Positions 35,924-61,790 of a stretch of 64,000 nucleotides of DNA are shown here, in pieces (the stretch's first letter is position 1; every line of letters begins with the position of its first letter). The notes under the pieces were generated by a model. That model was not told where the DNA came from. It saw nothing but the letters and a program-made list of their open reading frames with translations, and made no database searches. A program made the translations under genes and the position numbers. The stretch is from a virus, in the IMG/VR virus record IMGVR_UViG_3300025929_000016, positions 1 through 64,000 of that record; one strand, 5' to 3'.

Positions 35924-35951
35924 ATACTACCATAAGTTTGCCTGTAGGCAA
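35924..35951 (-). promoter_or_regulatory. late promoter, TTGC...GCAA family
   Basis: On the minus strand TTGCCT (35946-35951), 16 bases and TAGTAT (35924-35929), with GCAA inside the spacer forming a dyad TTGCCTACAGGCAA. AGTATTTGC lies just upstream, as in the promoters at 49385 and 56992. It drives the lysis and tail genes below 35879. Confidence 0.65.
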
Positions 35952-35985
35952 ATACTTACATTGTTTGTAAGCAACCGCCTACAAA

Positions 35986-36636
35986 TCAATCGCCGCCAGT
36001 CCCTCCTCCTGGATTAATGCCATTCTGCGAATTGCAAGAAGGCGAGTTGTATTCCATCTCCTGCGTATAATTTCCACCGCTGCCATTAGCGAAAACGCCC
36101 ATGAGCGAGTAGAAAGATATGCTTCCGTCACCGCCTGCGCTGATCGGTTGGCAGTACGTATAGAGCAGTGTCCCGTAGGCTGGATATGGCACAAATCCAC
36201 ACTGAGTACTGTTGTAAGCGAGTGGTGAAGCAAACTCGCCACGATTACCATCTGCGAATACGCCAACGAGAGTAGTTCCATCGCAATACTGCCGCAACAG
36301 GGTTCCGTAGGGCGTCGGTGCTACGTATCCGCACGTTGGACTATTGAATTCGATAACGTTAGAATACGAACCGCCGTAGCCGTCCGCGTAGGTCTCAAAC
36401 AAGTTGACATCATTGCAGTAGCGGCCAAGCGGCGTCCCACGTGCCGGGTAGACCGGCGGAGGAGGCGGTGGTGGCGTCACAGCAACGGACTTACCCCGCA
36501 GTTGCCCAAGGGTAATAGGGCCACTCGGGACGCCAGCCAAGGCTCGGCAACGGGCATCGCCGATGGTCAGCGGCAGACCGATACCTAGCTCGGTCGCCAC
36601 ATTCCCTAACGTGATGTTACCGGTTGGCGTAGTCAT
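35986..36636 (-). CDS. tail adhesin with three Cys-containing repeats, 216 aa
   Basis: Residues 1-50 form a common phage N-terminal module (ITLGNVATELGIGLPLTIGD, LRGKS). After a Pro-rich linker come three repeats of about 43 residues of the form YGTLLxxYCxGxxLxGVFADGxxGxY...YNSxxCGY (starting near residues 64, 108 and 151). This type of repeat occurs in tail fibre and adhesin tips. It probably contacts the host surface. It ends with a Gly-rich tail. Confidence 0.7.
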   Translation of the reverse strand: MTTPTGNITLGNVATELGIGLPLTIGDARCRALAGVPSGPITLGQLRGKSVAVTPPPPPPPVYPARGTPLGRYCNDVNLFETYADGYGGSYSNVIEFNSPTCGYVAPTPYGTLLRQYCDGTTLVGVFADGNRGEFASPLAYNSTQCGFVPYPAYGTLLYTYCQPISAGGDGSISFYSLMGVFANGSGGNYTQEMEYNSPSCNSQNGINPGGGTGGD

Positions 36637-38603
36637 TACTCGAGTTCCTTAATACGAGCTTCCAGTTGCAGGATGCGCTTTGCCAGCTCCACAACAGAAA
36701 CAGCCGCAAAACCGCCATGATGTACAGTGTAGAACCTATCGTCATCCACATGCACAGCACGAGGAAGAAACTTGGCAAGCGACTGAGCGCCAACACCAAG
36801 ACCGTGACCGCCATCGATCCAGTCAAACATGCCGTACTTCTCGATGCCTGCAAGCGACTCGACATAGTTCTCTGGCAACTGCGACCAGTTCTTTTTCTGC
36901 CTTTCATCTGACATTTCCATCACAACAGAAGCACGGAATGGGCCGTAGTTGTCGCCGCCTGCATTCGTTACTTCCATCCAGTTGTCAGCAGCAAGACGGA
37001 TCTGCGCGGCGACGCGACCTGCCCAATGGAACGCCAGCGATGGAGGGACACCTGCTTGCGCTCCCGCGAAATCGCCTTCACGAATCTGGATACGTTCAGT
37101 GTACGCCAGTGTGGTATTACCACCGGCCAATGCCCATTGACCTGGGACACCGGTCTTTACCGATTGATCGTTACGTGCTGGAGTGTACCCCAGAGCATTC
37201 GTCACCATACTACCGTTGATGCCAGTGATGAAACCGGCAGGATTGCTGGCGTTGTAAGGTGTGAAGTTCAGCTTCGGCTGCGCACCCAGAGCAGTGAGTG
37301 CATCCGCTGCCGTAGTAGCGCCCGTACCACCAGCAGCGATAGCCAATGGGCCAGTAGGCGCAGGAGTTGTCGGACCACCAGTGCCTTCAAAGGTACCAAT
37401 GAACTTTGTCGCCCGCACCACACCACGGAAGTTAGCTTCGTCAGGCGAGACAGTAAGACCAGGAAAGCCTCCAGTGGCGATACCTACCGTATTCGTGCCG
37501 GCCCGATACAGACCAGTGTCGCTGTCGCTGGAGAAGTTGATGGAAGGCGCACCAGCAGAGCCGTCGATGATGGACACGTTGCTGCCGATAGAGGCAGATT
37601 GCGCGGCGACCACGTTCACACCGTCGCAGTACGTGATAACACGGTCGGTATTGTTGAACACGACGCCGGTACCGTCAACAGTCTTTAGAGTCAACGTGCG
37701 CTGGCCGTTGTAGCTGTTCTGCAGATAGTAGATCGCCACGACCGATGGAACAATGACGGTCACGTTGGTAGCCGGAGTGCCGGTGAACTGGAGCAGCTTG
37801 CTGGAAGCTTCTGCCGCTGTCAGCGTGAAGGTGCCGCCAGCCGATACATCCTTGACCAGCTTGGTAAATTGGAATTGAGTGCTGCGACCATAGCCAATGG
37901 TGTAGAAGGCATCACCAGAACAGAACACAAAGACAGACTCGTTCGGCGAGAGCGCCAGAGAAGCGAGGCCATCAATCTTTTCGTTCGACTGCGGTTGGAG
38001 CGTGACGGTGCCTTCTCCGCTGTTGCGTTGAGCGTAGAAGAAGTTGTTGCCGAGACTGTCAGCAGCCGGAAGATTGATAACAGTGCTGCCGCCAATGTTC
38101 GTAATGACCTGTGCGCGGTTATCTTTGGTGATGTTGTAGTTGCTGGAGTTAACCGTAACCCGCAGCCCGAGGTTTAGCACGTTGTTGCCTGCTACCAACC
38201 CCCTACCCGCCAGCGCCGCAGCGTCTGCGCCCGAGGTACCAGCGCCGAATGTAATGCTGCGCCACATGCCGCCAGTCGTCCCATTGTCGATCAGCCACAC
38301 ATATTTAGCCGCGCCGGGTAGAACAGTGGTGATTTCATTGCCAGCCGTATCAGCAATTGCAAAGGCTCGCGTGCCCGTATTGTGGAACAGTGCATCCATG
38401 CCAAGCGATACCTGAGCAGCAGCCGGGAGCCGCATCTGCAGATTGTCTGCGAGGGCTTCGACCGAGTTGATTGCCGCGATGTAGTTGTCGCCTTGATAGT
38501 TGCTAGGCCAAGCGAATTGCGTGGTCGCATTCAGGGTGATGTAGCGGTAGGACTCCCCTGCCGGTGCGACTGTCTTGTTGCCGAGTACGTTGCTGTAGTT
38601 CAT
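36636..38603 (-). CDS. tail fibre with C-terminal S74 intramolecular chaperone
   Basis: The 655-residue protein has a long beta-structured shaft (VTITxxGGSTVINLPAADSL-type repeats) and ends in a Peptidase_S74 domain. It begins around MSDERQKKNWSQLPENYVES (catalytic Ser/Asp and Lys region), with YGMFDWIDGGHGLGVGAQSL and a terminal coiled coil (VVELAKRILQLEARIKELE). Such domains trimerise the fibre and cut themselves off. The start MNYSNVLGNKTVAPAG is coupled to the preceding gene (ATGA). Confidence 0.8.
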   Translation of the reverse strand: MNYSNVLGNKTVAPAGESYRYITLNATTQFAWPSNYQGDNYIAAINSVEALADNLQMRLPAAAQVSLGMDALFHNTGTRAFAIADTAGNEITTVLPGAAKYVWLIDNGTTGGMWRSITFGAGTSGADAAALAGRGLVAGNNVLNLGLRVTVNSSNYNITKDNRAQVITNIGGSTVINLPAADSLGNNFFYAQRNSGEGTVTLQPQSNEKIDGLASLALSPNESVFVFCSGDAFYTIGYGRSTQFQFTKLVKDVSAGGTFTLTAAEASSKLLQFTGTPATNVTVIVPSVVAIYYLQNSYNGQRTLTLKTVDGTGVVFNNTDRVITYCDGVNVVAAQSASIGSNVSIIDGSAGAPSINFSSDSDTGLYRAGTNTVGIATGGFPGLTVSPDEANFRGVVRATKFIGTFEGTGGPTTPAPTGPLAIAAGGTGATTAADALTALGAQPKLNFTPYNASNPAGFITGINGSMVTNALGYTPARNDQSVKTGVPGQWALAGGNTTLAYTERIQIREGDFAGAQAGVPPSLAFHWAGRVAAQIRLAADNWMEVTNAGGDNYGPFRASVVMEMSDERQKKNWSQLPENYVESLAGIEKYGMFDWIDGGHGLGVGAQSLAKFLPRAVHVDDDRFYTVHHGGFAAVSVVELAKRILQLEARIKELE

Positions 38604-38824
38604 TGTAGATCCTCTTCCGGTCGTGGGTACCGCAATGTTATGATTTCAGTTTTCCGTGGTGGCAGGTCATGCGGGCTACGCATGTCTTGATCCGCTTTGC
38701 ACACGCGCAAGGCCGGATTCTGGCGATCCACGACCAGTTCGTCGTATGGGAACTTCATATGACAACGGTCGCATATTGCGACCGCTGCTGTACGATTCCC
38801 TCTTGTATCGAGGAAGAGTGGCAT
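38600..38824 (-). CDS. small Cys-rich phage protein, 74 aa
   Basis: It has an AICDRCHMKFPYDELVVDRQ segment and RVCKADQDMRSPHDLPPRK, so a CxxC and a third Cys that could hold zinc. The end TLRYPRPEEDLQ is conserved-looking. The pattern CDRCxxxxPYxEL...L.VC..D.D is common in small podovirus proteins beside tail completion genes. It is coupled on both sides. Function unknown. Confidence 0.7.
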   Translation of the reverse strand: MPLFLDTRGNRTAAVAICDRCHMKFPYDELVVDRQNPALRVCKADQDMRSPHDLPPRKTEIITLRYPRPEEDLQ

Positions 38825-39918: not shown

Positions 39919-39927
39919 GGTTTTCCT

Positions 39928-43449: not shown

Positions 43450-43464
43450 GTAATTATTCCTTTA

Positions 43465-46053: not shown

Positions 46054-46062
46054 TGTTTTCCC

Positions 46063-48047: not shown

Positions 48048-49349
48048 TTACAGAAGGCCGTCGATAGAGCGTTGGGTGAGCAGCGAAAGAGCAGGTACAA
48101 TTCCCTTGCCGACTGCCGTATCATTGTTCAGGATCAGCATCTTGCCGGAGCCGCTTGGCCCTGCTTCGATGGTGCAAGAACGATCTGCCGAGGTAAGGAC
48201 AGCAGTCCAGACACCAGTATCGATATCGGCGGCCACCATGGTGGAGGCATCCTGCTCGGTAGACAGACCAACTCCTAGGTCTTGACCAGAAATAACGTTG
48301 GTCAGTTGGCCGGTGTAGTTGATCGCAACGATGCTGACACCGTCCCGTTTGAGCGTCAAAACTTGGCTCGTACCAAAGGCAGTTTTTAAGGCCGATATAT
48401 AAGCGGCCCGCTTGCTACCCAACCCTGCCCCCGCTACGGCGGCGCGCACCTGCGCAAGCGTGGCGCTGTCTAGCAGCACTGCCGCCACCGGCGCAACCCC
48501 ACCGTCCCATGGGTACACGGTAACAAGTTTGAACGCAAAACCGCCACCGTTGTTCGTAGGTGCGGGAATGTTCGTACTGTCACCATTGTACTGTATAATG
48601 AATGGTGTGATGACCCAAACACCGCCTTTGATCAAGTCCAAATCGAGACGGTAGATCGCGCCCGGCTGAACAGAGAAGGCAGGTGTGGTATTGCCGGAAT
48701 ACTGGAATCCTGGACCGAAGGTGAGTGTGCGACCGCCTTGGCTGTCTTGTTGGAAGATCAGGCGAATACGGTCACCTGCTTGATAGCCGGTCGGCGTGTC
48801 GATGGTGACATTGCGCGTCATCAGCAGTAGGAAGTTGTTGCTGTTCGCGTTGTTCATCAGCGCGTGACCGTCGGCGCCAATCGGCAGGTCGACTTCCGGG
48901 CGGAAGCCTGTCGCTACAGATTGGTCACCCCAAGCGATATCGTAATCGTTATTGCTCAGCTTTTTGGGAATCTGGCCGGCGCTACCGCCTTTCGGCAGAC
49001 CAGCACCTGGAGCACCTGGAGCGCCTGCACTGAGGTTCAGACGGAGCAGTGCTGCTGTGATTTTCGCGTCAATCAGTGCTTCTTCAGCTGTGTCGTCAAC
49101 GATTTCAACGTCGGGAATGGTCAGGTCAACGTAGCCGTCCTTGTGGAAGGATAGCGTATAGCGACCGTCCATCACATAGAACGAGTAGAAACCTAGAGCA
49201 TCGGTACGGACAGGGTTGGAAATCTGATTGGCCGTAGAATTAGCGCCGTAGAGCGTGGCAAGAGAGCCGTTCGGGTTGGAGACGGTGACGAAAGCACCTT
49301 CAATCGCATCACCGTGGGGATCTTGATAGTTATCGAAATATTTCTTCAC
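48048..49349 (-). CDS. tail fibre with N-terminal Ig/carboxypeptidase-like module, 433 aa
   Basis: Starts at GTG 49349 (AAAGGATTTTGTGTG). The N-terminal 85 residues (IEGAFVTVSNPNGSLATLYG, NPVRTDALGFYSFYVMDGRY TLSF) form the carboxypeptidase-regulatory-like module often used to attach fibres. A collagen-like linker (GAPGAPGAG) and beta domains follow, with a C-terminal region (ATLAQVRAAVAGAGLGSKRA, TIEAGPSGSGKMLILNND). It is the first fibre gene behind the late promoter at 49385 and may be the particle-proximal part. Confidence 0.7.
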   Translation of the reverse strand: MKKYFDNYQDPHGDAIEGAFVTVSNPNGSLATLYGANSTANQISNPVRTDALGFYSFYVMDGRYTLSFHKDGYVDLTIPDVEIVDDTAEEALIDAKITAALLRLNLSAGAPGAPGAGLPKGGSAGQIPKKLSNNDYDIAWGDQSVATGFRPEVDLPIGADGHALMNNANSNNFLLLMTRNVTIDTPTGYQAGDRIRLIFQQDSQGGRTLTFGPGFQYSGNTTPAFSVQPGAIYRLDLDLIKGGVWVITPFIIQYNGDSTNIPAPTNNGGGFAFKLVTVYPWDGGVAPVAAVLLDSATLAQVRAAVAGAGLGSKRAAYISALKTAFGTSQVLTLKRDGVSIVAINYTGQLTNVISGQDLGVGLSTEQDASTMVAADIDTGVWTAVLTSADRSCTIEAGPSGSGKMLILNNDTAVGKGIVPALSLLTQRSIDGLL

Positions 49350-49384: not shown

Positions 49385-49413
49385 AGTATAGCACGAGGGC
49401 AACTTGCTGGCAA
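49385..49413 (-). promoter_or_regulatory. late promoter, TTGC...GCAA family, extended -10
   Basis: On the minus strand TTGCCA (49408-49413), 17 bases and TATACT (49385-49390) preceded by TGC. TTGCCAGCAA forms the dyad; AGTATTTGC lies upstream. It drives the fibre cluster from 49349. Confidence 0.75.
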
Positions 49414-49440
49414 GCAAATACTTGCCAGCGGGCCATGGGA

Positions 49441-49868: not shown

Positions 49869-50786
49869 TTACGCGCCTGGAGTGCCGTACAGGGTGCGCC
49901 AGTTGGTCCAGCCGGTCGCATAGCGCTCGGTGGCCTTGTAGCGGATGGAGTCAGTCTCGAAGTCGCCTTCCATCGATTTTTCCAGCTTGCGACGCATCTT
50001 GACCTTGAGGCCTTCGCTTTCGTCGGTCTGGATGAACCATGCCGTCGGCGACGTAAGGCGCGAGATCACGACCGATTGGTCGGCGGACAGGATGCCCATC
50101 GATTTCACGGCGTTGATGTCGTTGTTGTTGGTGCCCGAACGCAGAACCGATTTCAGGAGAACTTCGGCCTGGAAAATGTTCGACGGATGGATCACCAGCT
50201 TTTGCGGCGACAGGCGGATCTTCTTGCCGTTGTTGTCCTGGGCCAGACGGATCTGGATCAGCATCTGTTCCAGGGAGGTCTGGGACAGCGCAGCGGCGGT
50301 GCCGAGCAGGTTGGATTGCGTACCGCCGACAACCGGATGGGCATTGGAGATCAGCTCCTTGCCGTCGCCGCCGACGTACGAACCGTTGAAGGCACGGTTC
50401 AGTTCGTTGGCGCACTTGGTTTCCTTGGTTTCCACCAGAGCTTGGGCCAGAGCCTTCGCAAACATGGAACCCAGACGGATGTGTTCGCCGTCTTCGACCA
50501 GTATCTTGGTCAGCGCGTAGGCCAGACCGTACACCTGATAGGTGTAGCGCTTGTTGAACAGCACACCGCCGGAGGTGTAGGTGACCGGTTGGCCGTCCTT
50601 GATTTCCGGCGCCGCGCCGAAGTTGAACAGGACGCTTTCTTCGTCGAAGGAACGGGCCATGCCGTTTTCTTCCTTGAAGATCGGTTTCCACTCGTCCTTG
50701 CGTTGGTCATAAACGCCGTCGAAGACGGTATTCAGGATTGGTTCGACAACCGCACGGAAGTCGGTACTGCGCATGATGTTAGGCAT
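49869..50786 (-). CDS. major capsid (coat) protein
   Basis: The 305-residue protein lies behind the scaffold-like and decoration-type genes and before a strong terminator, the usual place for a coat gene. It begins MPNIMRSTDFRAVVEPILNT, has a long helix (FAKALAQALVETKETKCANE) and AHPVVGGTQSNLLGTAAALS then LSPQKLVIHPSNIFQAEVLL. The C-terminus is basic then ends WTNWRTLYGTPGA. These fit an HK97-fold coat of the Mu T-like kind. No protease or pro-domain is fused. Confidence 0.8.
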   Translation of the reverse strand: MPNIMRSTDFRAVVEPILNTVFDGVYDQRKDEWKPIFKEENGMARSFDEESVLFNFGAAPEIKDGQPVTYTSGGVLFNKRYTYQVYGLAYALTKILVEDGEHIRLGSMFAKALAQALVETKETKCANELNRAFNGSYVGGDGKELISNAHPVVGGTQSNLLGTAAALSQTSLEQMLIQIRLAQDNNGKKIRLSPQKLVIHPSNIFQAEVLLKSVLRSGTNNNDINAVKSMGILSADQSVVISRLTSPTAWFIQTDESEGLKVKMRRKLEKSMEGDFETDSIRYKATERYATGWTNWRTLYGTPGA

Positions 50787-50815
50787 CTTAAGGCTCCTTG
50801 ATTACGGTTGTCGGA

Positions 50816-51376: not shown

Positions 51377-51390
51377 GTGTTTCTCCTAAG

Positions 51391-51954: not shown

Positions 51955-51958
51955 GATC

Positions 51959-52966
51959 TTATGCCTTTCCGTTTTGTTTGTCGTAAGCCCGATAGCTCTG
52001 TATCATCTTTTCCCGCGCCTGTGGGTTATCCCACACACCGGCGTCCTTCATTGCTTGGACCCGATCTGCAGACAACTTGAAGGTGGCTTTCGCCCCGCCT
52101 GGAGCAGAACTATCGCGCCCCGAACCAGAAACTACCGACTTCGGCTTGTCTTTAGTAGCACCAGCCGCCGTTGATGTCTCAGCAGTAGTTACTTTACCAC
52201 CGGCAACTCGGTGTGGCAAGTACTTTTTAACGCGGGCGGACAATTCGTCCCAATATTCCTCGGTGCGAGGGTCAAAACCTTCGGCAACCAGACTATTGTC
52301 CAGTGCGCGAGTGACCTGGGAGTCTGGGTCGGTGCCTTCTTGCTTGTACCACGCGTTCTGGGACATGAAGCGTTGAGCATTTTCCTGGAGCTTGGTGTCC
52401 AGCGGCTTTGGCGCCGATTGGCGTTGTTGGAACGCCTGCTTGACGTTGGTCAGCTGATCGTGCTTCTGACGCATCGAGATCATTTTCTCGACGGCATCCG
52501 CTGCACTTTCGGCATCGCCATTCTGCAGCGCGGTGATCTGACGCTGCTTCTGGAAGTTGTAGCCTTGGGCCGCTTGCTTGATGCTTTCATCGATCTGTGC
52601 CAGCTCGCCGCCTTCTGCACGGCGTTCGATGACTGCCAGACGCTGTTCCAGGGATTGACGAGCGCTGCGTTCGGAGGCAAGCTCACGACGCATGCGGTCT
52701 TCTTTTTCCTGGCGACGGCGTTTCTGTTCGGCGCGCTCTTCGCGACGGCGGGCTTGCTTCGCAACCGTTTCGTCGTCTACCTGAGTTTCGCCTTCTGCAT
52801 TGCCTTCAGCAGCAGTCTTTTCGTCGAGTTCGATAACGACGCTGCCGTCGTCTTGATCGCCGAGCTTAACTGCATTAGCTTGATCATCACCAGCAGCGCC
52901 TTCACTGCCAGTATCTTCATGATCAAGATCAAGATTGTCTTCGTGGTCTTCATTTTCGATTGCCAT
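51959..52966 (-). CDS. scaffold-like protein, 335 aa
   Basis: A very acidic N-terminus (MAIENEDHEDNLDLDHEDTG), a long charged coiled coil (AKQARRREERAEQKRRRQEK, ERSARQSLEQRLAVIERRAE) and a basic C-terminal part with RVQAMKDAGVWDNPQAREKM, typical of internal scaffolds that hold coat proteins during assembly. The gene lies directly upstream of decoration and coat genes. No protease domain is seen. Confidence 0.75.
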   Translation of the reverse strand: MAIENEDHEDNLDLDHEDTGSEGAAGDDQANAVKLGDQDDGSVVIELDEKTAAEGNAEGETQVDDETVAKQARRREERAEQKRRRQEKEDRMRRELASERSARQSLEQRLAVIERRAEGGELAQIDESIKQAAQGYNFQKQRQITALQNGDAESAADAVEKMISMRQKHDQLTNVKQAFQQRQSAPKPLDTKLQENAQRFMSQNAWYKQEGTDPDSQVTRALDNSLVAEGFDPRTEEYWDELSARVKKYLPHRVAGGKVTTAETSTAAGATKDKPKSVVSGSGRDSSAPGGAKATFKLSADRVQAMKDAGVWDNPQAREKMIQSYRAYDKQNGKA

Positions 52967-52967
52967 G

Positions 52968-53219
52968 TCATGCTCCAGTTATTTCGTACCAGTCGTCGGT
53001 CAAGACGTCCGCTTGTTTGAGTGCCCAGAAGACCACCGTGCCGTCCGTGTTGTACAGATACAACGATGGTACCTTGAGGGTAGAGTGGGCGATCGGCTTT
53101 TGCAGCACGATGTAGGAACCAACCCGGTTCCAACCGCGCCGGGCCACTTTACCGCCTGCTTCCAGGCAGCGTATGGCACGACCGATGTCCCAGTCACCGA
53201 TAGGTTGGGCGATGGTCAC
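52968..53219 (-). CDS. DUF2829/Tad2-like protein (possible anti-Thoeris)
   Basis: The 83-residue protein follows the family layout: DIGRAIRCLEAGGKVARRGW N, then SYIVLQKP, VPSLYLYNTDGTVVFWALKQ and ADVLTDDWYEI. Proteins of this fold include Tad2, which binds the signalling molecule made by Thoeris ThsB and blocks defence. Whether this one binds such a ligand cannot be read from sequence. It is odd in being inside the head operon, coupled to the co-chaperonin gene (ATGA) rather than among early genes. Confidence 0.75.
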   Translation of the reverse strand: MTIAQPIGDWDIGRAIRCLEAGGKVARRGWNRVGSYIVLQKPIAHSTLKVPSLYLYNTDGTVVFWALKQADVLTDDWYEITGA

Positions 53220-53668
53220 AGGATGTAGGTGTCGAGTTTCAGGGGATTGCCGTACACACGTTCGATGACCTCGTGATCATTGACGGTGGCAAAGTACACT
53301 TCCTGACCATCCTTGCCCTTGACGGTGCGACGGTTGCCGCCCCAACGAGGAACGATGACGAAGTCGCCCGGCTCGCACCACGTACCTTCGAGCCACGGCA
53401 GGCCGGTGTCACGATTGCAGAAGGCGAGGTCGCCGACAGCAATGACGCGGGCCACTTGCATATTCCATTTCTCGGTTTCTTTGGTCTCTTCGACCAGGAC
53501 GATGCCGCTGGCAGTCTTCGTATTGTGCGACATCAGTTGCACCAGGATACGAGCGCCGGTAGGAATAACTTCAGGGGATACTTCGGGGAAACGGGACAGA
53601 ACTTCAGGGTCAGTGCGGAAGTCGGCAGCCGCTTTCATGGCGGTGACGATGTAAGGCAGGGCTTTCAT
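53216..53668 (-). CDS. GroES-like (Cpn10) co-chaperonin
   Basis: The 150-residue protein has VIPTGARILVQLMSHNTKTA SGIVLVEE (mobile-loop-like region after SGIVL), a core WNMQVARVIAVGDLAFCNRD, and GTWCEPGDFVIVPRWGGNRR then EVYFATVNDHEVIERV. This fits phage GroES homologues, which work with host GroEL to fold coat protein (T4 gp31 role). Position next to scaffold and coat genes agrees. It is longer than bacterial GroES because of an N-terminal helix (residues 1-35). Confidence 0.85.
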   Translation of the reverse strand: MKALPYIVTAMKAAADFRTDPEVLSRFPEVSPEVIPTGARILVQLMSHNTKTASGIVLVEETKETEKWNMQVARVIAVGDLAFCNRDTGLPWLEGTWCEPGDFVIVPRWGGNRRTVKGKDGQEVYFATVNDHEVIERVYGNPLKLDTYIL

Positions 53669-53696
53669 AAAATCTCCGATAGATTTTTCCGGTGGC

Positions 53697-53762
53697 GCTG
53701 ACCGCCTTCAGATAGAACCGGAGAGTCTTTCTTACCCCCTGCGCAGGAGGTCGGCGGTCAGC
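53697..53762. promoter_or_regulatory. 10-bp inverted repeat around a 46-base loop
   Basis: GCTGACCGCC (53697-53706) pairs with GGCGGTCAGC (53753-53762) in the gap between the co-chaperonin and the 56-aa gene. No T-run is present. It may be an RNA stem that sets expression between the portal and head genes. Confidence 0.4.
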
Positions 53763-53805
53763 ACAAGCACTATACATGCAGACCTGCCGTAAAGCAACAA
53801 ATAAA

Positions 53806-53976: not shown

Positions 53977-54063
53977 TTATAGTCCTGAGGCGTACCACGT
54001 GGCAATAATGATCAGCCACAGAATCACAATGGATTTACTGATGCTGATCATTATTGATTTCAT
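53977..54063 (-). CDS. 28-aa membrane peptide
   Basis: MKSIMISISKSIVILWLIII followed by ATWYASGL is one hydrophobic helix. ATGA overlap with the upstream gene and TAAATG contact with the next one strongly suggest that it is translated. Function unknown; superinfection or lysis timing are guesses I do not adopt. Confidence 0.5.
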   Translation of the reverse strand: MKSIMISISKSIVILWLIIIATWYASGL

Positions 54064-54248
54064 TTTACTTCTGCCGCTTTTGGCTCAGCTGCGGGCTTGT
54101 GAGCACCATGGATGGAAATCACCATGTTTTTTGACGCCGGATCGACTGAACCGAACTTCCGATTAGCATATTCAGCAATAGATTTGCAGTCGGAGACGTT
54201 TTCGCGGCTGATTTCTTTGCCATCTTGCTTAATAATGAAGGTTTTCAT
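54060..54248 (-). CDS. hypothetical protein, 62 aa
   Basis: A short protein (MKTFIIKQDGKEISRENVSD) with the segment CKSIAEYANRKFGSVDPASK and a Lys/Ala-rich tail (KPAAEPKAAEVK). It probably forms a small beta-alpha unit. It is located 45 bases after the portal gene stop (54294). No family is recognised. Confidence 0.6.
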   Translation of the reverse strand: MKTFIIKQDGKEISRENVSDCKSIAEYANRKFGSVDPASKNMVISIHGAHKPAAEPKAAEVK

Positions 54249-54293
54249 AAAATTTCCGTAAAATTGAACGTTTTAATGGACGTATGCGTCGTT

Positions 54294-56957
54294 TTATTGT
54301 GCTGCCGGTGCCTGTGGTGCAGGGGCTAACTCGGCCTGCTGCTCGTTTTGCTCCATTTGGTGCCCATGCTGCTGCTGCGCCAGTGCCAAGGACGCTTGAC
54401 CATCAATTGTTGCCATTACTTTCGCGTGATTTTGCTCATTTTGCAGCCGATCAGCATCCAGTTGGGATTGGAATGCGGCCATGAGCTTCTCGTTGTTCGC
54501 GTTAAGTGCTGCAATGAACTGGTCGGTCTGGTTATCGCCTTGATTTTTGAGGAGTTCGGTCTGCATGTGCATCTCGTTGTCCTGTTGATTCTTGGCGAGC
54601 GCGACCTGAGCGTCCAACTGTTCGCCCTGCGGCTTGAGTTGGGTAACTTCAAGCTGCTTGAGGCCGATGTTCGCTTGATCCAGTTGCTTCTTGCGCTCGA
54701 CTTCTTGCATGGCGACTTGCATCGTGGCCTGGACTGCTGGATCCATCTGTGGCTTCGGTGCGTACTGTGCGGCCAGTTCCTGGACTTTCGCCAGCATCTT
54801 CATCGGCTCGGCCAATTCCTGATTTATAATCGCCAACACTTTGTCGGACGCGGCAACCATCGCCTGTTCAACCTGCACGGTCGGCATGTGGTCGGCCAGT
54901 TGGCTGAATTGCGTCGCTGCTTCCATGCCGTCAGCGTACAAGAAGCTGATATGCTGCGCCACGTGTTCCAGTTGCACGGCCATCATTTTGGTGCCGATTG
55001 CAGGATTGCTGAAAACCGGGTCGGTGGCGAACTTCAGGTGCAACATGATGTGCGCCATGTGGTTCTGCTTCGGCAGCGCCAGCAACGGAGTACCATGCAG
55101 CGAAGCCATATTCTCAGCGACCGGGTTGAGGTTCTTCGGCTTTTCCGGCTGCGGCAGGATACGGGCAGCTTCGGCAGTTGACAGACGCATACGCGTCAAC
55201 ATCATTTGTGCGAGCTGATTGAAATCCCACTTCAACATCGGGAACATGGCGACCAGTTGCTGAACACCTTGCATCTGAGCGAAGCGTTGCGTCTCGCTGA
55301 AGATGTTCGGGTCGGACACTGGCACGATGTCCATGTTCTTCTGGAAGTCGGCGCGGCCAATCACCAGCTCGCCAAGCTCTTCCACTGTGACTTGCTCGTC
55401 CAGGTAGGTAGCGTTGATGCGATGCAGGATCTCGAGCGACTTCGCCTGCGAGTGGTGCATGCGGGCGTGGATGCTGGAGTACGTTGCCGCACCTTGCTCC
55501 ACCAGCGCCATCGTCGTGCCAACCGGCGTACGATCGCCGACCTGGGACAGTGCCTCGCTAGTCGTGGACAGCACACCTTTACCAGCGTTCGTAAGCCAAT
55601 CCAGCAACTGGAAAAGCACCGTCGACGGCTGATTGTAGGGCATTGCCATGATGGTCTTGCGGATGTCGTCAACGCCCGCGACCTGATCGATCTCCATGAT
55701 CTCGCCAGGATTGATGGTCAGGTTGCCGCCGTTGCCCTTACCGGACTTCAGCTTAACCAGCGCCTGCGAGTTGTTGATGTGTGCAGCGTCTAGAAGCGCA
55801 CGGAGAGCACCAGTGAGGCTACCAGAGAGACCACCAATAAGATGAGGCAGGCCAATGCCATACGCTCCTCGCCACGGAATGAGTTTGTACTCCGCGATCC
55901 AGTCGAGTTTCTTGTAGAGCCGGTCTTCTTCATCCCAATTCCTGTAGAAGCCAACGACTTCTTCGGTGTGTTCATCGATGGTGATGATGTACGGTGCCAG
56001 ATCGCCACCGGTACGGTCATCGCTGTCTACCGTGCGCCACGTGTAGACTTCGTAGAGTTGACGGACTCCATCTTCGTTGTAGCCCGTTCCCGTTTTGCCT
56101 TCAATTTTTTCGTTCGCGCCCGCTGTTGCCGACTGGTCTGGATGGCTACCCAACGTGCTGAGGTTGTCTGGTTCTTTATATAGGCCAGATGCGACGCGGC
56201 GGTCGAACTCTTGCTCGGTGAGCATCTGGCGATGTGTTGCGCGGCCAGCAGTGTAGAAATCGGTGCAGGAATATGGGAGGAACAAATCATCAACCGGAAC
56301 AAACTCGCAACGTGCACGGCCATACTGTTCATCGTACCACCATTTGATGTATTGACTGCCGCCCATGGGCAGTTGAGTGAGTAGAACTTCCAGTTCACTA
56401 CGGTACTCGCTGATGTTCTTCGTGGTCTGCCAGTTCATGAAGCGGACCTTGCGATCAGCGACTTCCAGCTTGGCATCCGTCTCCGCACCAACAATGTGAG
56501 CCTTGACCGGGCCGCTTGGCGGGAAGATCTCTTTCATGGCGCGGCTGGCAAAGTCCACGCAGCTTTCGGCCAGGATCGGGTGAACGACTCGGCTGGCACC
56601 TTCGAACTCGGCGCCGCCCGGTGCATCTTCGCCCAGACCAGTGCGACGCAGACCTTCCTGATACTGCTTGTCGCGGTTGGAGCGAGCTTCCTTGTCCTTC
56701 TCGACGAGGTCAATCAGTTCCCGAGCAATCGTGCGCAGTTCCTGCGGGTCAATCGTCTCAGCGAGGTTGTCCAGAAAGCCAGATGCTACCGGATCATTCG
56801 CAGAATCTTCATCTTCGAAATGCACGACTGCGCCGCCGTCTTCGGTCTCCTCGATAGAAGTGCTGTCGTCCATCGGTTCAGCGGGTGTTGCTGACAGTGC
56901 CGGGTCGCTGATACCTTTGATGTGACGCCGCGCTTCGTCGTTCGGGAGGGTTGCCAT
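54294..56957 (-). CDS. portal protein, 887 aa
   Basis: A large podovirus-type portal. After an acidic start come LRTIARELIDLVEKDKEARS and GASRVVHPILAESCVDFASR, then IFPPSGPVKAHIVG, VLLTQLPMGGSQYIKWWYDE, IPWRGAYGIGLPHLIGGLSG and NNSQALVKLKSGKGNGGNLT. The C-terminal 170 residues are Gln-rich and coiled (VEQAMVAASDKVLAIINQEL, NNEKLMAAFQSQLDADRLQN), as in the barrel of large portals. It lies directly behind the terminase genes in the transcript. Its start is preceded by the promoter-like element at 56992. Confidence 0.85.
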   Translation of the reverse strand: MATLPNDEARRHIKGISDPALSATPAEPMDDSTSIEETEDGGAVVHFEDEDSANDPVASGFLDNLAETIDPQELRTIARELIDLVEKDKEARSNRDKQYQEGLRRTGLGEDAPGGAEFEGASRVVHPILAESCVDFASRAMKEIFPPSGPVKAHIVGAETDAKLEVADRKVRFMNWQTTKNISEYRSELEVLLTQLPMGGSQYIKWWYDEQYGRARCEFVPVDDLFLPYSCTDFYTAGRATHRQMLTEQEFDRRVASGLYKEPDNLSTLGSHPDQSATAGANEKIEGKTGTGYNEDGVRQLYEVYTWRTVDSDDRTGGDLAPYIITIDEHTEEVVGFYRNWDEEDRLYKKLDWIAEYKLIPWRGAYGIGLPHLIGGLSGSLTGALRALLDAAHINNSQALVKLKSGKGNGGNLTINPGEIMEIDQVAGVDDIRKTIMAMPYNQPSTVLFQLLDWLTNAGKGVLSTTSEALSQVGDRTPVGTTMALVEQGAATYSSIHARMHHSQAKSLEILHRINATYLDEQVTVEELGELVIGRADFQKNMDIVPVSDPNIFSETQRFAQMQGVQQLVAMFPMLKWDFNQLAQMMLTRMRLSTAEAARILPQPEKPKNLNPVAENMASLHGTPLLALPKQNHMAHIMLHLKFATDPVFSNPAIGTKMMAVQLEHVAQHISFLYADGMEAATQFSQLADHMPTVQVEQAMVAASDKVLAIINQELAEPMKMLAKVQELAAQYAPKPQMDPAVQATMQVAMQEVERKKQLDQANIGLKQLEVTQLKPQGEQLDAQVALAKNQQDNEMHMQTELLKNQGDNQTDQFIAALNANNEKLMAAFQSQLDADRLQNEQNHAKVMATIDGQASLALAQQQHGHQMEQNEQQAELAPAPQAPAAQ

Positions 56958-56991
56958 GTGCAGCCTTAATAGAGGTTATTTACTAGCGGCA

Positions 56992-57020
56992 AGCCTACCA
57001 TAGAAATTGCCTAGCTGCAA
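56992..57020 (-). promoter_or_regulatory. late promoter, TTGC...GCAA family (weak -10)
   Basis: On the minus strand TTGCAG (57015-57020), 17 bases and TAGGCT. TTGCAGCTAGGCAA forms the dyad and AGTATTTGC lies upstream. The -10 is poor, so it may need an activator or be inactive. Confidence 0.45.
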
Positions 57021-57032
57021 GCAAATACTCGG

Positions 57033-57281
57033 TCAATGAAACGGATTGTCAAAGTGCCATTCTCGATTATCCAGCGCTTTATGGAGGTACATATCTTCCT
57101 CGTGGTCATTTGTGGGATGGCACCAGCAGTCGACCACATCGTGAGGCCGCAGGTCGTCCAGTGGATACATGTGCGCCGTGGTCACGCCCTGATGTGTGTA
57201 GTCTATGGAGGCCCATCCCACAGACCCTTCACGCAGCGTAAGGGTTGCCGGCTCGTCGCTTACTGTCTTCTCGGTCGGCAT
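57033..57281 (-). CDS. hypothetical protein, 82 aa
   Basis: The start MPTEKTVSDEPATLTLREGS at 57281 has a GGAAGAGG site and lies inside the end of the terminase gene (53-base overlap). The protein has VGWASIDYTHQGVTTAHMYP, LDDLRPHDVVDCWCHPTNDH and EWHFDNPFH. This pattern occurs in small phage proteins beside terminases. Function unknown. Confidence 0.6.
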   Translation of the reverse strand: MPTEKTVSDEPATLTLREGSVGWASIDYTHQGVTTAHMYPLDDLRPHDVVDCWCHPTNDHEEDMYLHKALDNREWHFDNPFH

Positions 57282-58701
57282 ACTCTTCCTCTTCTTCCCG
57301 TGGGTCAACACTAATCCAGTTCTGGTCGCGCAGCAGGGCCAGCGTCTGGCTGAACGTGTCCGTGTAGTCGTCGTGCAGGCTGAGTGGGAACACGCAGACT
57401 TCGGTGAGGAAGTCCGTTGCCCATGTTACAGGCTCGCCCGGCACCTTCTTGCTTTCCAGCAGATAGCAACGTCCGTTCATAACAAGGTGAGACACAGCGT
57501 GAAGCCGCTGCACCTTGTCCATCTTGCCTGGATTGTAGGCGCGGGTCGGCACGTTCGTACGATTCAAGTCCTGAATCAGTGTGATACCAGAACCCTTTTC
57601 CTCGATCAGGACGATGTCTGCACACTGTCCCGGCTTGGACATATCGTTAACATCGCCTCCATACTTGGCCTTGTATTCGTCCACGACTCGCTTACGCAAG
57701 GTGGGATACTGCATGTGTTCGGTCCAGGCATCAAGAAGCATAGCGCAAAACACACCATCTTCATTCTCGAAGACTCCCCAGACCGTGCAGGCCGTGGGAT
57801 CGTTATGGGTCTTTTCCGTGTAAGCGGTATCATACGACTGAATAATGTAGAGAAAGTACGGCAGAGGCTTGTTCGCAGGCCAGAGCTTGAACCAGCTTCG
57901 CTTGACAATGCCTTGGTCTTCAAGGTCGAGTACTTCAGCATGGATTTCTTGTCGGCCGAGCGCTGTGCCCTCATACTGAGTGACCTGGTTGAAGAAGGAC
58001 TGCGCAAGATTGGATTTGTTTTCATACGTCGAGCCTGTCGTGATCTTCATGCCCTTGGCAGGGTCTTTGCTCCACTTGATAAACATCTGCACCAGCGGGA
58101 TCGGCTTAGGCGTCGTGGTAATGCAGACCTGTGGCCGCTTGCCAAGGCGCAGACCGAACATCGCCATATCCCACGTCCGCTGGATAGTCTCAGCGTTACC
58201 GTTCGCCCAACCGGCGATCTCGTCCATCCAGATAGCATCATGTTGAGGTCCGCGCAGCCGTTCCGGTTCCTCAGCGGAATATAGCGTTGCTATCGCGCCA
58301 TTCGGCCAAGTCAGCCTCCGCTTGGTCGGCTCGAATAGGGGCATGTCGTCCGGACTGCACACGCTTAGGATGCCTGACTCGCCTTCCACGATAACATCTC
58401 GGGCATCCGCACTCGTCGGAGCAATAATCCCGATCCTTCGGCTTCCGTTCTTTACCTGATCCCGTACCCATTCTGCACCTGTTCGTGTTTTACCAAATCC
58501 CCGACCGGCCAGGATTAGCCAGTAGTTCCAGTCTCTATCAACAAAGCCCTCGAGTTGTTTCGGCCGGGCATTGAACTCCCAGTCATACAGGAGTTCCTTC
58601 GCTTCTTCTTCGGATAATGAGTGGAGGAACTCGTCCTGCTCCGCTTGGGGCAACAGGGCGAATTGTTCCTTCTGACTCAGCGCGTAATTTACAGTAGACA
58701 T
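57229..58701 (-). CDS. terL: terminase large subunit
   Basis: Start ATG 58701 overlaps the upstream stop (TGATG). The ATPase has Walker A ILAGRGFGKTRTGAEWV (about 63-79), GIIAPTSADARDVI, and Walker B HDAIWMDEIAGW (D160, E161), then CITTTPKPIPLVQMF. The nuclease domain begins IIQSYDTAYTEKTHNDPTAC, with DIVLIEEKGSG. The 490-residue length fits. It packages DNA with the small subunit encoded 2.5 kb away at 61188. Confidence 0.95.
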   Translation of the reverse strand: MSTVNYALSQKEQFALLPQAEQDEFLHSLSEEEAKELLYDWEFNARPKQLEGFVDRDWNYWLILAGRGFGKTRTGAEWVRDQVKNGSRRIGIIAPTSADARDVIVEGESGILSVCSPDDMPLFEPTKRRLTWPNGAIATLYSAEEPERLRGPQHDAIWMDEIAGWANGNAETIQRTWDMAMFGLRLGKRPQVCITTTPKPIPLVQMFIKWSKDPAKGMKITTGSTYENKSNLAQSFFNQVTQYEGTALGRQEIHAEVLDLEDQGIVKRSWFKLWPANKPLPYFLYIIQSYDTAYTEKTHNDPTACTVWGVFENEDGVFCAMLLDAWTEHMQYPTLRKRVVDEYKAKYGGDVNDMSKPGQCADIVLIEEKGSGITLIQDLNRTNVPTRAYNPGKMDKVQRLHAVSHLVMNGRCYLLESKKVPGEPVTWATDFLTEVCVFPLSLHDDYTDTFSQTLALLRDQNWISVDPREEEEEYADREDSKRRAGNPYAA

Positions 58702-58910
58702 CACAGATCCAGGAGATAGGCATTTGCTTTTTGGAGCAGATACACTGACTCGGCCACTCGGCCGTTATCGGATGCGACGTAGAGTTCTCCGTCATTGTCC
58801 AGCCCTATCACCAGTACGGTCGTGAGATCCTTGCCCTTGGCTGCGTCCAGTACTTGAACAACAGGTAGGTCATGAAGAGTGGTACCGTTGAATTGTAGAA
58901 TGTCAGCCAT
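58701..58910 (-). CDS. conserved small phage protein, 69 aa
   Basis: A beta/alpha protein (ADILQFNGTTLHDLPVVQVL, AAKGKDLTTVLVIGLDNDGE, LYVASDNGRVAESVYLLQKA). This is a common short phage family whose role is unknown. It is the first gene of the late operon and sits right behind the promoter at 58955. The stop overlaps the terminase start. Confidence 0.75.
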   Translation of the reverse strand: MADILQFNGTTLHDLPVVQVLDAAKGKDLTTVLVIGLDNDGELYVASDNGRVAESVYLLQKANAYLLDL

Positions 58911-58954
58911 GAGTTATCCGGTGTGAGTGAACGCTTAATCCTAGGCGTTGCCTC

Positions 58955-58983
58955 ATGGTAACACGATGGTTGCTGGTAGGCAA
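58955..58983 (-). promoter_or_regulatory. late promoter, TTGC...GCAA family
   Basis: On the minus strand TTGCCT (58978-58983), 17 bases and TACCAT preceded by TG. TTGCCTACCAGCAA is the dyad. It lies 45 bases before ATG 58910 and would start the terminase/head operon. Confidence 0.6.
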
Positions 58984-59645
58984 GCGGTGATTAGTGTTGC
59001 AGGATGGGCAATAGCAAAATGACAACTAGTCTAAAATTTTCAACAGGCTGCGAGTGGGCCATAGTCCAGAATTCTTTCTCCTCCTGGGGTGCGACCGATG
59101 CCCATGAGCAACTGATATCCTACGAGCAAGAGTTGCCACCAAGCACTCTTTCCTGATCACAACATTACTGACAAGCAACTGTTGCCGAGTGACAATGTTG
59201 CATACACACAACGTTACCTATCAGCAACTCATGCCTAGTAGCAAGCCATTGCCTAGCCAGGTTCATGCTCGATAGTAATAGTTGCAAATAATAAATATAT
59301 ATTTCCTGTAGGATACTGGCATGAATTAGCTCCCAGCAAGTACCGTGCCATGGTGCAGATAGGAAAGATTTGCTGGCACACTTCTTGTCTAGCATGAACC
59401 ATGCCTGCTATCCTTGCCGACAAGCAATTGTTAATTCCAATTGTTAAATGCACGGTTCCACAGCGTCCTCAGATGGACGCGTATTCCATTTAATTTTCGG
59501 TGCAGACTACCACAGACGCACCCTAAAAATAATGGAATTGCATTTTCTGGCATGGATTGTGCTTAGAATGCCCATGGGCAATGGAACGCTGGCATGGTTC
59601 ATGCTACGTGTACGCGCCCACGCATCGCGCCTTACATTAGGCTAA

Positions 59646-59675
59646 GGTTGGCACTGCTAACAGGCAGTGCCAACC
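59646..59675. promoter_or_regulatory. 12-bp perfect stem-loop
   Basis: GGTTGGCACTGC-TAACAG-GCAGTGCCAACC. The 6-base loop and GGTTGG start recall the dispersed hairpin repeat, but the arms differ. No T-run follows. Confidence 0.55.
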
Positions 59676-59924
59676 AAAGCAAACAGGCACGGCAACGGCA
59701 CAGCCTGGACGCCTAGGCAGCGCTACAGGCTGGCGCATAACATAGGCGCACCGGCAGCATGCGCGGCGCACAGGCCCGCTAAAGCCGTATAGGTTTTAAC
59801 TATCAACATTCCATTTCCCATTAAAACGTTTTTACACAAACCTTTGAAAATGCCCTATTATTCTTCCATGGCAGCAGCAAACAGCAACTCGCAGCAGCCT
59901 AGGCCAAACGGGCCGACCTAACCC

Positions 59925-59942
59925 AACTATACAGGATATATC
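59925..59942 (+). promoter_or_regulatory. CTATACAG leader
   Basis: AACTATACAGGATATATC runs into ATG 59943. A possible TTTACA with TATTAT 19 bases on lies about 110 bases upstream (near 59829-59858), so the promoter is less clear than the leader. Confidence 0.6.
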
Positions 59943-60551
59943 ATGCAAATCGTTAAAATCTCCTCCGCCTTCATCTTCTCGGCCGCTTGCACCAAGGAAA
60001 TGCTGTTTGAGCTGGCACAACATGCATTCGTTGGCTATAGCCTGGAGGCAACTGAGAAACTTGCATCGCAGCAACTGTCCAAGTCTAGCGGTGGCAAGGG
60101 CGGCAAAAGTGCTGGCGTGGGCGACTTGCCCATGGGCAAGCTCCGTACCTGCGTGGTTAATAAGCTGGACAACAATCCCGATGTCGCGGACGTGTTCAAG
60201 TCGGGCGAAATGGAGTTTGAGTTTAACTGCATGCCGGACCTGGACATGGGCACCGCTGGCGCAAATAAGTCCAAGCGGCAACAGTCCGGCCCACGCGCTA
60301 CGGCAAGCAAGGGCACTATGACCGGCGCATACACCACCGGCCCTAAGAAGTGTGGCCTTAAGGCAACGGCCGAGACCGACGAGGGCAAACATTCCATCTG
60401 GCAACATGTGTTTGCTTGCAGCACTTTTGAGGAATATTTCCAAAAGGCACCGGCCAAAGCCGTAACCAAAACCGGTCGCGTGATTACCGCGTACAGCGAA
60501 ATGCAGTGGGCAATCAAGTCCGGCTGGATTGCACCGGTTGCCGCTCAGTAA
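59943..60551 (+). CDS. hypothetical protein, 202 aa, monocistronic
   Basis: The N-terminus (IVKISSAFIFSAACTKEMLF, ELAQHAFVGYSLEATEKLA) is alpha/beta. The middle is Gly/Lys/Ser-rich (SGGKGGKSAGVGDLPMGKLR), the C-terminus holds SIWQHVFACSTFEEYFQKAP and KTGRVITAYSEMQWAIKSGW. The last piece resembles the C-terminus of the protein at 3204-3695. Leader in front and terminator behind suggest an abundant early protein. No family is recognised. Confidence 0.7.
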   Translation: MQIVKISSAFIFSAACTKEMLFELAQHAFVGYSLEATEKLASQQLSKSSGGKGGKSAGVGDLPMGKLRTCVVNKLDNNPDVADVFKSGEMEFEFNCMPDLDMGTAGANKSKRQQSGPRATASKGTMTGAYTTGPKKCGLKATAETDEGKHSIWQHVFACSTFEEYFQKAPAKAVTKTGRVITAYSEMQWAIKSGWIAPVAAQ

Positions 60552-60559
60552 TAGCACAC

Positions 60560-60583
60560 GGCCCGGCGAAAGCCGGGCCTTTC
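60560..60583 (+). terminator. rho-independent terminator
   Basis: GGCCCGGC-GAAA-GCCGGGCC (60560-60579) with a GNRA loop, then TTTC. It follows the stop of the 202-aa gene by about 10 bases. Confidence 0.75.
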
Positions 60584-60606
60584 CCAAATGCAATAGGAGA
60601 TTGACC

Positions 60607-60858
60607 ATGGAAACGATTATCCAGGCCCGCGACCGCCAGTACGCTGAGGACATGGCAAAGAAACGTGCGAGGCGCGAGGCTGAGGACGAGCTGTATCGTC
60701 GGGCGAGCCAGATGCCTGAGAACAAGGACGTGCCGCATACATACGAGCAGCCTGCTCGCCGCACGGTCTACAGTCGCGATCCGCGCATCTGCAAGCATCA
60801 GTTCGCTAATGGTCGCAAGGTTTGCCCATATTGCGCGACAACCAATCCGGAGGCATGA
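60607..60858 (+). CDS. small Cys-containing protein, 83 aa
   Basis: ATG 60607 with AGGAG upstream. A basic helix (ARDRQYAEDMAKKRARREAE) is followed by a region with RICKHQFANGRKVCPYCATT, a likely zinc site (C-x-H...CxxC). Possibly a nucleic-acid-binding protein. It is coupled to the next gene by ATGA. Function unknown. Confidence 0.6.
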   Translation: METIIQARDRQYAEDMAKKRARREAEDELYRRASQMPENKDVPHTYEQPARRTVYSRDPRICKHQFANGRKVCPYCATTNPEA

Positions 60859-60932
60859 TGCGTGATTGGCTGATAGGAGTTGGTATCTTCCTCTGTATTC
60901 TAATCGTTGGCTATGTGGAGAATGTGCTATGA
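60855..60932 (+). CDS. 25-aa membrane peptide
   Basis: MMRDWLIGVGIFLCILIVGY then VENVL is a single hydrophobic helix. ATGA overlaps connect it to both neighbours, which is good support for such a short gene. Function unknown. Confidence 0.5.
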   Translation: MMRDWLIGVGIFLCILIVGYVENVL

Positions 60933-61102
60933 GGTATGAAAGAATTGTGAGCATCAGCCTGCAAGAGTCATGGGCCGTGCGGAAGTGCAGAGCTAAGGAC
61001 CACCTATGGCAGACGGTCTGTGAGAGTGCAACGCCTCAAAGTTCTGTCTTGTTTCTGGCGTGCTCACGTTGTGGTAGAACGTTGTTCCATCGCCACTATT
61101 AA
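60929..61102 (+). CDS. small Cys protein, 57 aa
   Basis: MRYERIVSISLQESWAVRKC continues to VCESATPQSSVLFLACSRCG, with CSRC and two more Cys that may bind metal. The start overlaps the stop of the membrane peptide. It is the last plus-strand gene before the bidirectional terminator. Function unknown. Confidence 0.55.
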   Translation: MRYERIVSISLQESWAVRKCRAKDHLWQTVCESATPQSSVLFLACSRCGRTLFHRHY

Positions 61103-61106
61103 ATCA

Positions 61107-61131
61107 AAAGCCCGCCAAGAGCGGGCTTTTT
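61107..61131. terminator. bidirectional terminator between converging genes
   Basis: AAAAGCCCGC-CAAGA-GCGGGCTTTT. It ends both the plus-strand block and the minus-strand small terminase gene. Confidence 0.85.
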
Positions 61132-61138
61132 AACGTCT

Positions 61139-61183
61139 GTTGGTACCAGCATACCAACTAGGCCAATTAAACGCCGTCAGCGT
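61139..61183 (+). repeat. dispersed hairpin repeat, copy 4
   Basis: GTTGGTACCAGCATACCAAC (61139-61158), 7-bp stem with 6-base loop, then AATTAAACGCC. The GGCGGGCCTG part seen in the other copies is missing. It lies 36 bases after the stop of the plus-strand gene, past the terminator. Confidence 0.6.
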
Positions 61184-61187
61184 CCAT

Positions 61188-61727
61188 CTATGCGTCGCCA
61201 GCTACCTTTGCCGGTGCCACGCCCGCCCCACTTACAGCAGCCTGCGCCGCCAGTGCTTGCTTCAGCCTATCCTTCGCGGTAACAGTCTCCATCGGCCCAC
61301 CATCCTTGCCAGTCAGTTCCACGGCAGCAGTCTCCTTCCACTTCGCACGTGTCTTGAGCCAGAACTTTGTCATGTCAGGTGACTGACCGCTCATCGCCAT
61401 CTGCAACGCAACCTTTGCCACCATGACATTCGGCAGATGCTGGCTGACAGTCAGCTCTTTCACATAGTACTTCTTCAGCAGCTTGAGTTCGATATTGAGC
61501 GCAAGGGCAATGTCCTTTGGCTCCAGGCCCATGCATGTGAGTACGGATACCTCTCGTGCTTGTGCTGGCGTTGGATTGAAGCCCGGTGAGTTATGACCGG
61601 GCTTTAGTTCAATACCTTTCTCCTTCAGGAGTTCAACATGTAGTTCTCGCAGGCGAGCTTCGGCGTCCTTCGGATCCTCGTATTCGCCGAGTCCCAATGA
61701 ATCCCAATCTATGGCTTTAAAGGACAT
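61188..61727 (-). CDS. terS: terminase small subunit (putative)
   Basis: The 179-residue protein has PTPAQAREVSVLTCMGLEPK DIALALNIELKLLKKYY, an HTH with the usual terminase sequence, then LPNVMVAKVALQMAMSGQSP, TKFWLKTRAKWKETAAVEL. This block (HTH, oligomerisation helices, FWLKTRAxWKE) is typical of phage small terminases. The Ala-rich tail would contact the large subunit. Its gene is unusually separated from terL by 2.5 kb that includes plus-strand genes. Confidence 0.8.
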   Translation of the reverse strand: MSFKAIDWDSLGLGEYEDPKDAEARLRELHVELLKEKGIELKPGHNSPGFNPTPAQAREVSVLTCMGLEPKDIALALNIELKLLKKYYVKELTVSQHLPNVMVAKVALQMAMSGQSPDMTKFWLKTRAKWKETAAVELTGKDGGPMETVTAKDRLKQALAAQAAVSGAGVAPAKVAGDA

Positions 61728-61761
61728 TTTGTTACTCCTGGTTTAGCAATAATATGAGTGC

Positions 61762-61790
61762 ATATTAGCATGAGAATTGCTGGACGGCAA
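61762..61790 (-). promoter_or_regulatory. late promoter, TTGC...GCAA family, extended -10
   Basis: On the minus strand TTGCCG (61785-61790), 17 bases and TAATAT (61762-61767) preceded by TGC. TTGCCGTCCAGCAA is the dyad. It lies 35 bases before ATG 61727 of the small terminase. Confidence 0.7.

Follow-up and report, generated by a model that had tools for sequence, protein, structure and literature searches.

Short inverted repeats that overlap promoters are familiar from the lysogeny switch of phage 434 and other lambdoid phages, in which a 14-bp dyad with 4-bp arms and a 6-bp gap overlaps the -35 element of the early promoters and is bound by a repressor dimer. The inverted repeat of the late promoters of phage P1 lies nearer the -10 element than the dyad described below, with its centre at about -22, and there is no -35 element. 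That repeat is 9 bp long, is bound by Lpa and occurs at 11 late promoters (PMC10695390, in excerpt). In the middle promoters of phage T4, the MotA box (wwwTGCTTtA, centred near -30 and ending 12 +/- 1 bp before the -10) accompanies a host -10, often with TGn (PMC2988021, in excerpt). Mycobacteriophages of Cluster O repeat a 17-bp symmetric dyad of no known function through the genome, in more than 30 copies of which about one third lie inside genes, while the stoperators of Cluster A are asymmetric and oriented with transcription (PMC4351075, in excerpt). Here we describe the dyad TTGC-N6-GCAA, which lies on the -35 elements of late promoters in the phage record IMGVR_UViG_3300025929_000016 (69,251 bases; the analysed window is bases 1-64000, and the dyad counts cover the full record). 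This kind of system is known, and the layout found here is a variant. The sequence argues strongly that the dyad is a regulator-bound operator at the promoters of the packaging, head, tail and lysis units; a single DNA-binding protein probably controls the late genes jointly, since the late promoters carry the same site, which also clusters beside the packaging genes. A search of open-licence papers for late promoters with an inverted repeat or operator, and for the names of related phages, returned no description of it.

Most genes of the record read leftward, and an earlier note made from the letters alone had proposed five minus-strand promoters at 61762, 58955, 56992, 49385 and 35924. All five were found at these positions, each with a TTGCNN -35, a spacer of 16-17 bp and TGn before the -10, and two more (P6 and P7) are added here:

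61762-61790, minus strand: promoter P1, before terS; TTGCCG-17-TAATAT with TGn; dyad TTGCCGTCCAGCAA at 61777-61790
58955-58983, minus strand: promoter P2, before a gene for 69 amino acids and terL; TTGCCT-17-TACCAT with TGn; dyad TTGCCTACCAGCAA at 58970-58983
56992-57020, minus strand: promoter P3, before the portal gene; TTGCAG-17-TAGGCT with TGn; dyad TTGCAGCTAGGCAA at 57007-57020; AGTATTTGC upstream at 57029
53769-53797, minus strand: promoter P7, before the GroES-like and capsid genes; TTGCTT-17-TATAGT with TG directly before the -10; dyad TTGCTTTACGGCAG at 53784-53797, with one mismatch (GCAG for GCAA)
49385-49417, minus strand: promoter P4, before gene 48048-49349; TTGCCA-17-TATACT with TGn (49413-49385); gap-6 dyad TTGCTTGCCAGCAA at 49404-49417; AGTATTTGC at 49422
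35924-35951, minus strand: promoter P5, before the lysis genes; TTGCCT-16-TAGTAT with TGn; dyad TTGCCTACAGGCAA at 35938-35951; AGTATTTGC at 35956
30732-30760, minus strand: promoter P6, in the 3' end of gene 30695-31834 and before gene 30032-30646; TTGCCG-17-TATGAT with TGn; exact dyad TTGCCGCAGGGCAA at 30747-30760

The spacing of 4-8 bases first proposed between TTGC and GCAA is looser than the actual arrangement. The gap is exactly 6 at 61762, 58955, 56992 and 35924; at 49385 the -35 TTGCCA is followed at once by GCAA (a gap of 2 from its own TTGC), and the gap-6 dyad starts from another TTGC, 4 bp upstream of the register seen in the other promoters. The left arm is the -35 itself in every promoter but P4. 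Counting from the last base of the -10 hexamer as -7, five promoters have the dyad at -35 to -22, P5 has it at -34 to -21 and P4 at -39 to -26; its distance to the -10 is constant within 1 bp in six of the seven. A textbook sigma-70 matrix ranks P4 first in the entire record and rates P6 highly. None of the six strongest plus-strand intergenic promoters (237, 1618, 3119, 63654, 64408 and 67826, in presumed early regions) carries an exact dyad, and the one at 3119 overlaps a dyad with one mismatch. The upstream AGTATTTGC claimed for three of the five original promoters was borne out; it has four copies in the record, three at P3, P4 and P5 and the fourth at 10092.

Compared with the described systems, the dyad resembles the Lpa family of phage P1 in being an inverted repeat common to late promoters across the genome and next to a host-type -10, here in seven promoters, one of them with a mismatch. 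It differs in sequence and in that its left arm is the -35 element: TTGC stands at -35 distance in all seven promoters, and the dyad centre lies between -27.5 and -32.5. The 4-bp arms, 6-bp gap and position on the -35 or spacer are those of the 434 type; here, however, the dyad serves late units, and no lysogeny gene turned up in the analyses made. As in Cluster O, a symmetric site is repeated through a phage genome, whereas the Cluster O dyads, in the excerpted text of PMC4351075, have no association with late-promoter -35 elements. The symmetry of the dyad and its few copies in genes set it apart from stoperators. T4 middle promoters likewise have an element near -30 with a host-type -10 and often TGn, but the MotA box is no dyad, MotA is monomeric and the box ends a few bp nearer the -10 than does TTGC (PMC2988021, in excerpt); TGCTTTA occurs in P7 only, at a different distance.

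The record contains 11 exact copies of TTGC-N6-GCAA, against a mean of 2.25 and a maximum of 6 in 100 dinucleotide shuffles of its 69,251 bases, and gap 6 is the peak, gaps 0-5 and 7-30 yielding 0 to 6 copies of TTGC/GCAA. Seven of the 11 fall in intergenic DNA, defined as gaps of at least 40 bases in a gene map of our own making (9,890 of 69,251 bases, 14%), which amounts to 0.71 per kb against 0.07 per kb elsewhere; four are inside genes. A map of longest open reading frames, with 6,022 intergenic bases, returns the same seven. An equal frequency inside genes, which the earlier note named as the result that would speak against its proposal, is thus not what the record holds. A promoter-linked search (TTGC, GCAA allowing one mismatch, and a -10 hexamer placed 22-24 bp downstream, at gaps 0-12) found 8 places at gap 6 against 0 to 4 at each other gap, namely P1, P2, P3, P5, P6, P7, the P1 dyad in reverse reading, and 24570, which adjoins an inverted repeat resembling a terminator. 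Among 152 sequences of at least 8 kb (this record and 151 fetched loci, the set being exclusive of pattern-scan loci and shorter loci), the most separate intergenic regions with the same dyad are the 7 found here, followed by 4 in locus L172 and then 3. The presence of GCAA in the five original promoters has a p of 7e-10, on which we do not rely because those sites had been picked by their dyad.

Further copies of the dyad crowd the 1 kb of noncoding DNA (58911-59942) between the gene served by P2 and a divergent gene. This stretch holds 11 gap-6 dyads with at most one mismatch, the P2 site included, against 1.2 in shuffles (none of 2,000 reached 11), and 0 to 5 dyads at gaps other than 6. It includes:

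59090-59260, upstream of P2: array of seven near-dyads with one mismatch each, starting at 59098, 59133, 59165, 59182, 59198, 59214 and 59231
59414-59427, same noncoding region: further exact dyad TTGCCGACAAGCAA
59568-59581, same noncoding region: further near-dyad ATGCCCATGGGCAA
59335 (plus strand), 59391 (plus strand) and 59605 (minus strand), upstream of terL: three copies of AGCAWGNNCCRTGCC, an AGCAWG repeat

The last five near-dyads of the array are spaced 16-17 bp apart. Seven dyads compare with a shuffle mean of 0.17, with none of 5,000 shuffles reaching seven, and across 30 shuffled genomes no 171-base stretch contained more than 4 near-dyads. Dyad positions 5 and 10, which were not used in the search, are pyrimidine and purine, respectively, in 16 of 18 cells at the nine array-region sites and in 13 of 14 at the seven promoters, where the fifth is also a -35 position. 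Because these positions agree in both sets, promoters and array have TTGCY-N4-RGCAA in common. This match between array and promoter dyad is the strongest evidence for the dyad as a putative recognition site; on the sum of the evidence, a protein-binding role is almost certain. The nearby AGCAWGNNCCRTGCC is a candidate packaging or TerS site.

The closest relatives found share about 73% DNA identity at most, over the matched parts. Megablast of 30000-54000 against phage records gave no near relative, blastn of the noncoding region gave no match, and searches of IMG/VR with the portal and with the divergent protein 59943-60551 returned no relatives. At corresponding places, TTGCC-17-TGnTA promoters that lack the right arm occur in two of the nearest relatives: one in L006 (3543, before terL) and one before the portal gene at 3019 in L007 and 7856 in L008, a pair with no difference in 4,763 compared bases that is counted once; L005 and L009 have other promoter sequences there. 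Across the loci, the TTGC/GCAA spectrum counts 60 at gap 6 against 27-102 at other gaps, with one promoter-like match. A promoter-like match at 52219, recurring at the same place in L005, was dropped since it is intragenic and a conserved peptide accounts for the resemblance (frames judged by eye). A scan of IMG/VR for the dyad with an extended -10 gave at least 118 stretches, with a single match in each of the 80 listed, which we read as chance.

What the relatives do keep is AGCAWGNNCCRTGCC, in places where other noncoding DNA is not conserved: the three copies upstream of terL here correspond to one in L006 (3364) and three in L007/L008 (526-623; 5363-5460), and elsewhere it occurs once in 3,715,403 bases of fetched loci. 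The repeats that adjoin it differ from phage to phage, being TTGC dyads here, GTTAGTAAGCGCTTACTAAC in L006 (3213-3409) and TTCACTAGTTGAA units in L007/L008 (L008 5556-5753). Among 33 loci viewed, of which 11 had insufficient noncoding sequence, repeats upstream of terL were also present in L027 and L033. A likeness between the array word of L008 and its portal promoter (9 of 11 bases) was discarded as too weak. The unrelated phage L172 shows a similar operator design with a different sequence: its four apparent operators, TTGAC-N6-GTCAA at 11574, 12333, 15997 and 18848, are all intergenic, and their left arm is the TTGACA -35 of minus-strand promoters.

The search for a binding protein yielded candidates only. 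The scan of part of the early proteins for a cI/Cro-type repressor gene gave weak helix-turn-helix matches at 63356 and 6650, the two proteins suggested by the earlier note, and the resolvase-type helix-turn-helix of an HNH protein (62245-62922).

63356-63649, plus strand: 97-amino-acid protein with a sigma region 4-like helix-turn-helix, Pfam match below cut-off; a candidate regulator, no more

Its sigma-70 region 4-like match has a Pfam E of 1.1e-4 and 22.1 bits, against a curated cut-off of 24.1; the best matches of its single-sequence model (pLDDT 68) are helix-turn-helix domains of many kinds, none significant (E 0.7 or worse), and homologue searches found none. The protein at 6650 has a weak match to a helix-turn-helix family (PHROG E 5.7e-5) and no homologue in phage records. 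Nothing ties either protein to the dyad.

The proposal that the dyad is a common site coordinating the late units is well supported by the fixed gap of 6, the intergenic bias, the two additional promoters and the array. We favour a repressor because the dyad overlaps the -35 and the spacer and some promoters already look strong; P4 and P6, given their high sigma-70 scores, should fire unaided. From these scores and from the relatives' promoters that have no right arm, we infer that the promoter probably works alone, in which case the added arm is most simply a repressor operator. Also counted for repression are the variable offset of the dyad from the -10 (by 4 bp in P4 and 1 bp in P5) and the use of the left arm as -35 in L172. 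The seven minus-strand late promoters of the packaging, head, tail and lysis units would then carry one operator, TTGCY-N4-RGCAA, bound by a dimeric regulator of helix-turn-helix type that is most likely phage-encoded. Its binding over about -35 to -22 would block contact with sigma region 4 and keep the late units off early in infection. The protein would also occupy the array beside the terL operon, which might act as a sink and help release the promoters as genomes multiply. We hold this reading as a whole, a dimeric and most likely phage-encoded repressor on the late -35 dyads, with about even confidence. Several points weigh against it. Positive control is the rule for late genes in every well-studied phage (PMC10695390, in excerpt); the weak promoter P3 (TTGCAG, TAGGCT) might depend on assistance; the relatives do not conserve the dyad, with no gap-6 peak in 2,068,820 bases of loci; no phage protein was pinned down as its binder; and with any 4-mer arm and any gap of 0-16, a count of at least 11 arises somewhere in 6 of 100 shuffles. 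Since this widest multiple test is not significant by itself, the genome-wide dyad count alone is suggestive; it is location, with seven of 11 exact copies intergenic, that decides the reality of the dyad.

An activator is the main rival, less likely than a repressor but with good precedent in phage P1 and its Lpa sites and in the rule of positive late control: a phage late activator would bind the dyad in place of a poor -35 and, with the TGn -10, recruit the host RNA polymerase, as do Lpa or the MotA/AsiA pair of T4 middle promoters. The near-constant distance of six sites to the -10 is in keeping with this, but P4, the best promoter of the record, is among several that already look strong, its dyad is shifted by 4 bp, the relatives have promoters at such places that lack the right arm, and all seven promoters have a TTGC -35, which is not needed if an activator replaces it. 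An extension of the preferred repressor reading, to which we give little weight, is a replication-coupled timer, in which one phage repressor on all seven -35 dyads would be titrated by the array, so that late transcription would open as genome copies rise, and in which relatives would have diverged in operator while keeping the place of the array upstream of terL. A packaging or replication protein, either TerS or an initiator, with its array at the packaging region and a second role as autoregulator of the late promoters, is an unlikely binder; the array does have terS on one side and terL on the other, and the AGCAWG repeats next to it are found again upstream of terL in relatives, yet TerS is 53% identical in L006 and 57% in L008 while the arrays there are quite different, which makes the conserved AGCAWG repeat the better candidate for a TerS site. 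A host regulator borrowed by the phage seems a little less likely still: host regulators commonly use 14-bp dyads of such a shape and no phage binder has emerged, but a dense array beside the terminase genes suits a phage protein better. That these are ordinary sigma-70 promoters, with GCAA a coincidence or the trace of a promoter duplication, is highly improbable; the relatives' TTGCC promoters without GCAA and the result of the all-dyad search are as it would predict, whereas most promoters keep the same register despite differing flanks, and the same dyad forms a separate array.

The dyad gives this phage group, known chiefly through environmental sequence, a candidate master switch of its late genes that can be tested. 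A repressor in that role would break the rule of positive late-gene control as stated in the excerpted text of PMC10695390. The array beside terL occupies a place filled by different repeat arrays in the nearest relatives, and may point to a rapidly changing operator system linked to the packaging region.

The genes served by these promoters, with others of the late region, were labelled as follows:

61188-61727, minus strand: terminase small subunit (terS), PHROG match and alignment with two relatives
57229-58704, minus strand: terminase large subunit (terL), PHROG match
54294-56957, minus strand: portal, PHROG match
53216-53668, minus strand: GroES-like protein, PHROG match
49869-50786, minus strand: head protein, PHROG match
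36636-38603: tail-fibre match
35002-35598, minus strand: endolysin, PHROG match

These matches uphold terS, terL, portal and endolysin as the genes behind the proposed promoters; the fibres placed after 49385 found no such support, as PHROG matches there are to families of unknown function only. The leader of the GroES/capsid transcript (53660-53768, minus strand) has a strong predicted fold of -41.5 kcal/mol (z -3.3), a long stem with a nested hairpin that matched no Rfam family.

The divergent gene beside the array (59943-60551, plus strand) has counterparts at the same place in L006 (2496-3185, minus strand) and L008 (4634-5200, minus strand), 45 and 49% identical. Its product has no Pfam, PDB or fold match (model of low confidence, pLDDT 52) and no homologue in phage records; a kinship with the product of 3204-3695 was weak in direct comparison (E 0.015) and was set aside. 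Before that latter gene, the early promoter at 3119-3147 (plus strand, TTTACA-17-TATAGT) has as its spacer the dyad GCAAG-N7-CTTGC, the same half-site facing outward. The fourth AGTATTTGC, at 10092 on the minus strand, lies within a GTTAG-N6-CTAAC dyad immediately before the DNA ligase gene. Seven GTTAC words, some 9 bp apart, occur in about 330 noncoding bases (61815-62155) upstream of plus-strand early genes and are possibly iterons. Finally, an intergenic element beginning GGCGTTT, with the hairpin TTGGTA...GGTACCAA, has four copies, at 2851 (minus strand), 5048 (plus), 24012 (plus) and 61175 (minus), which are probably dispersed terminators or RNA hairpins.

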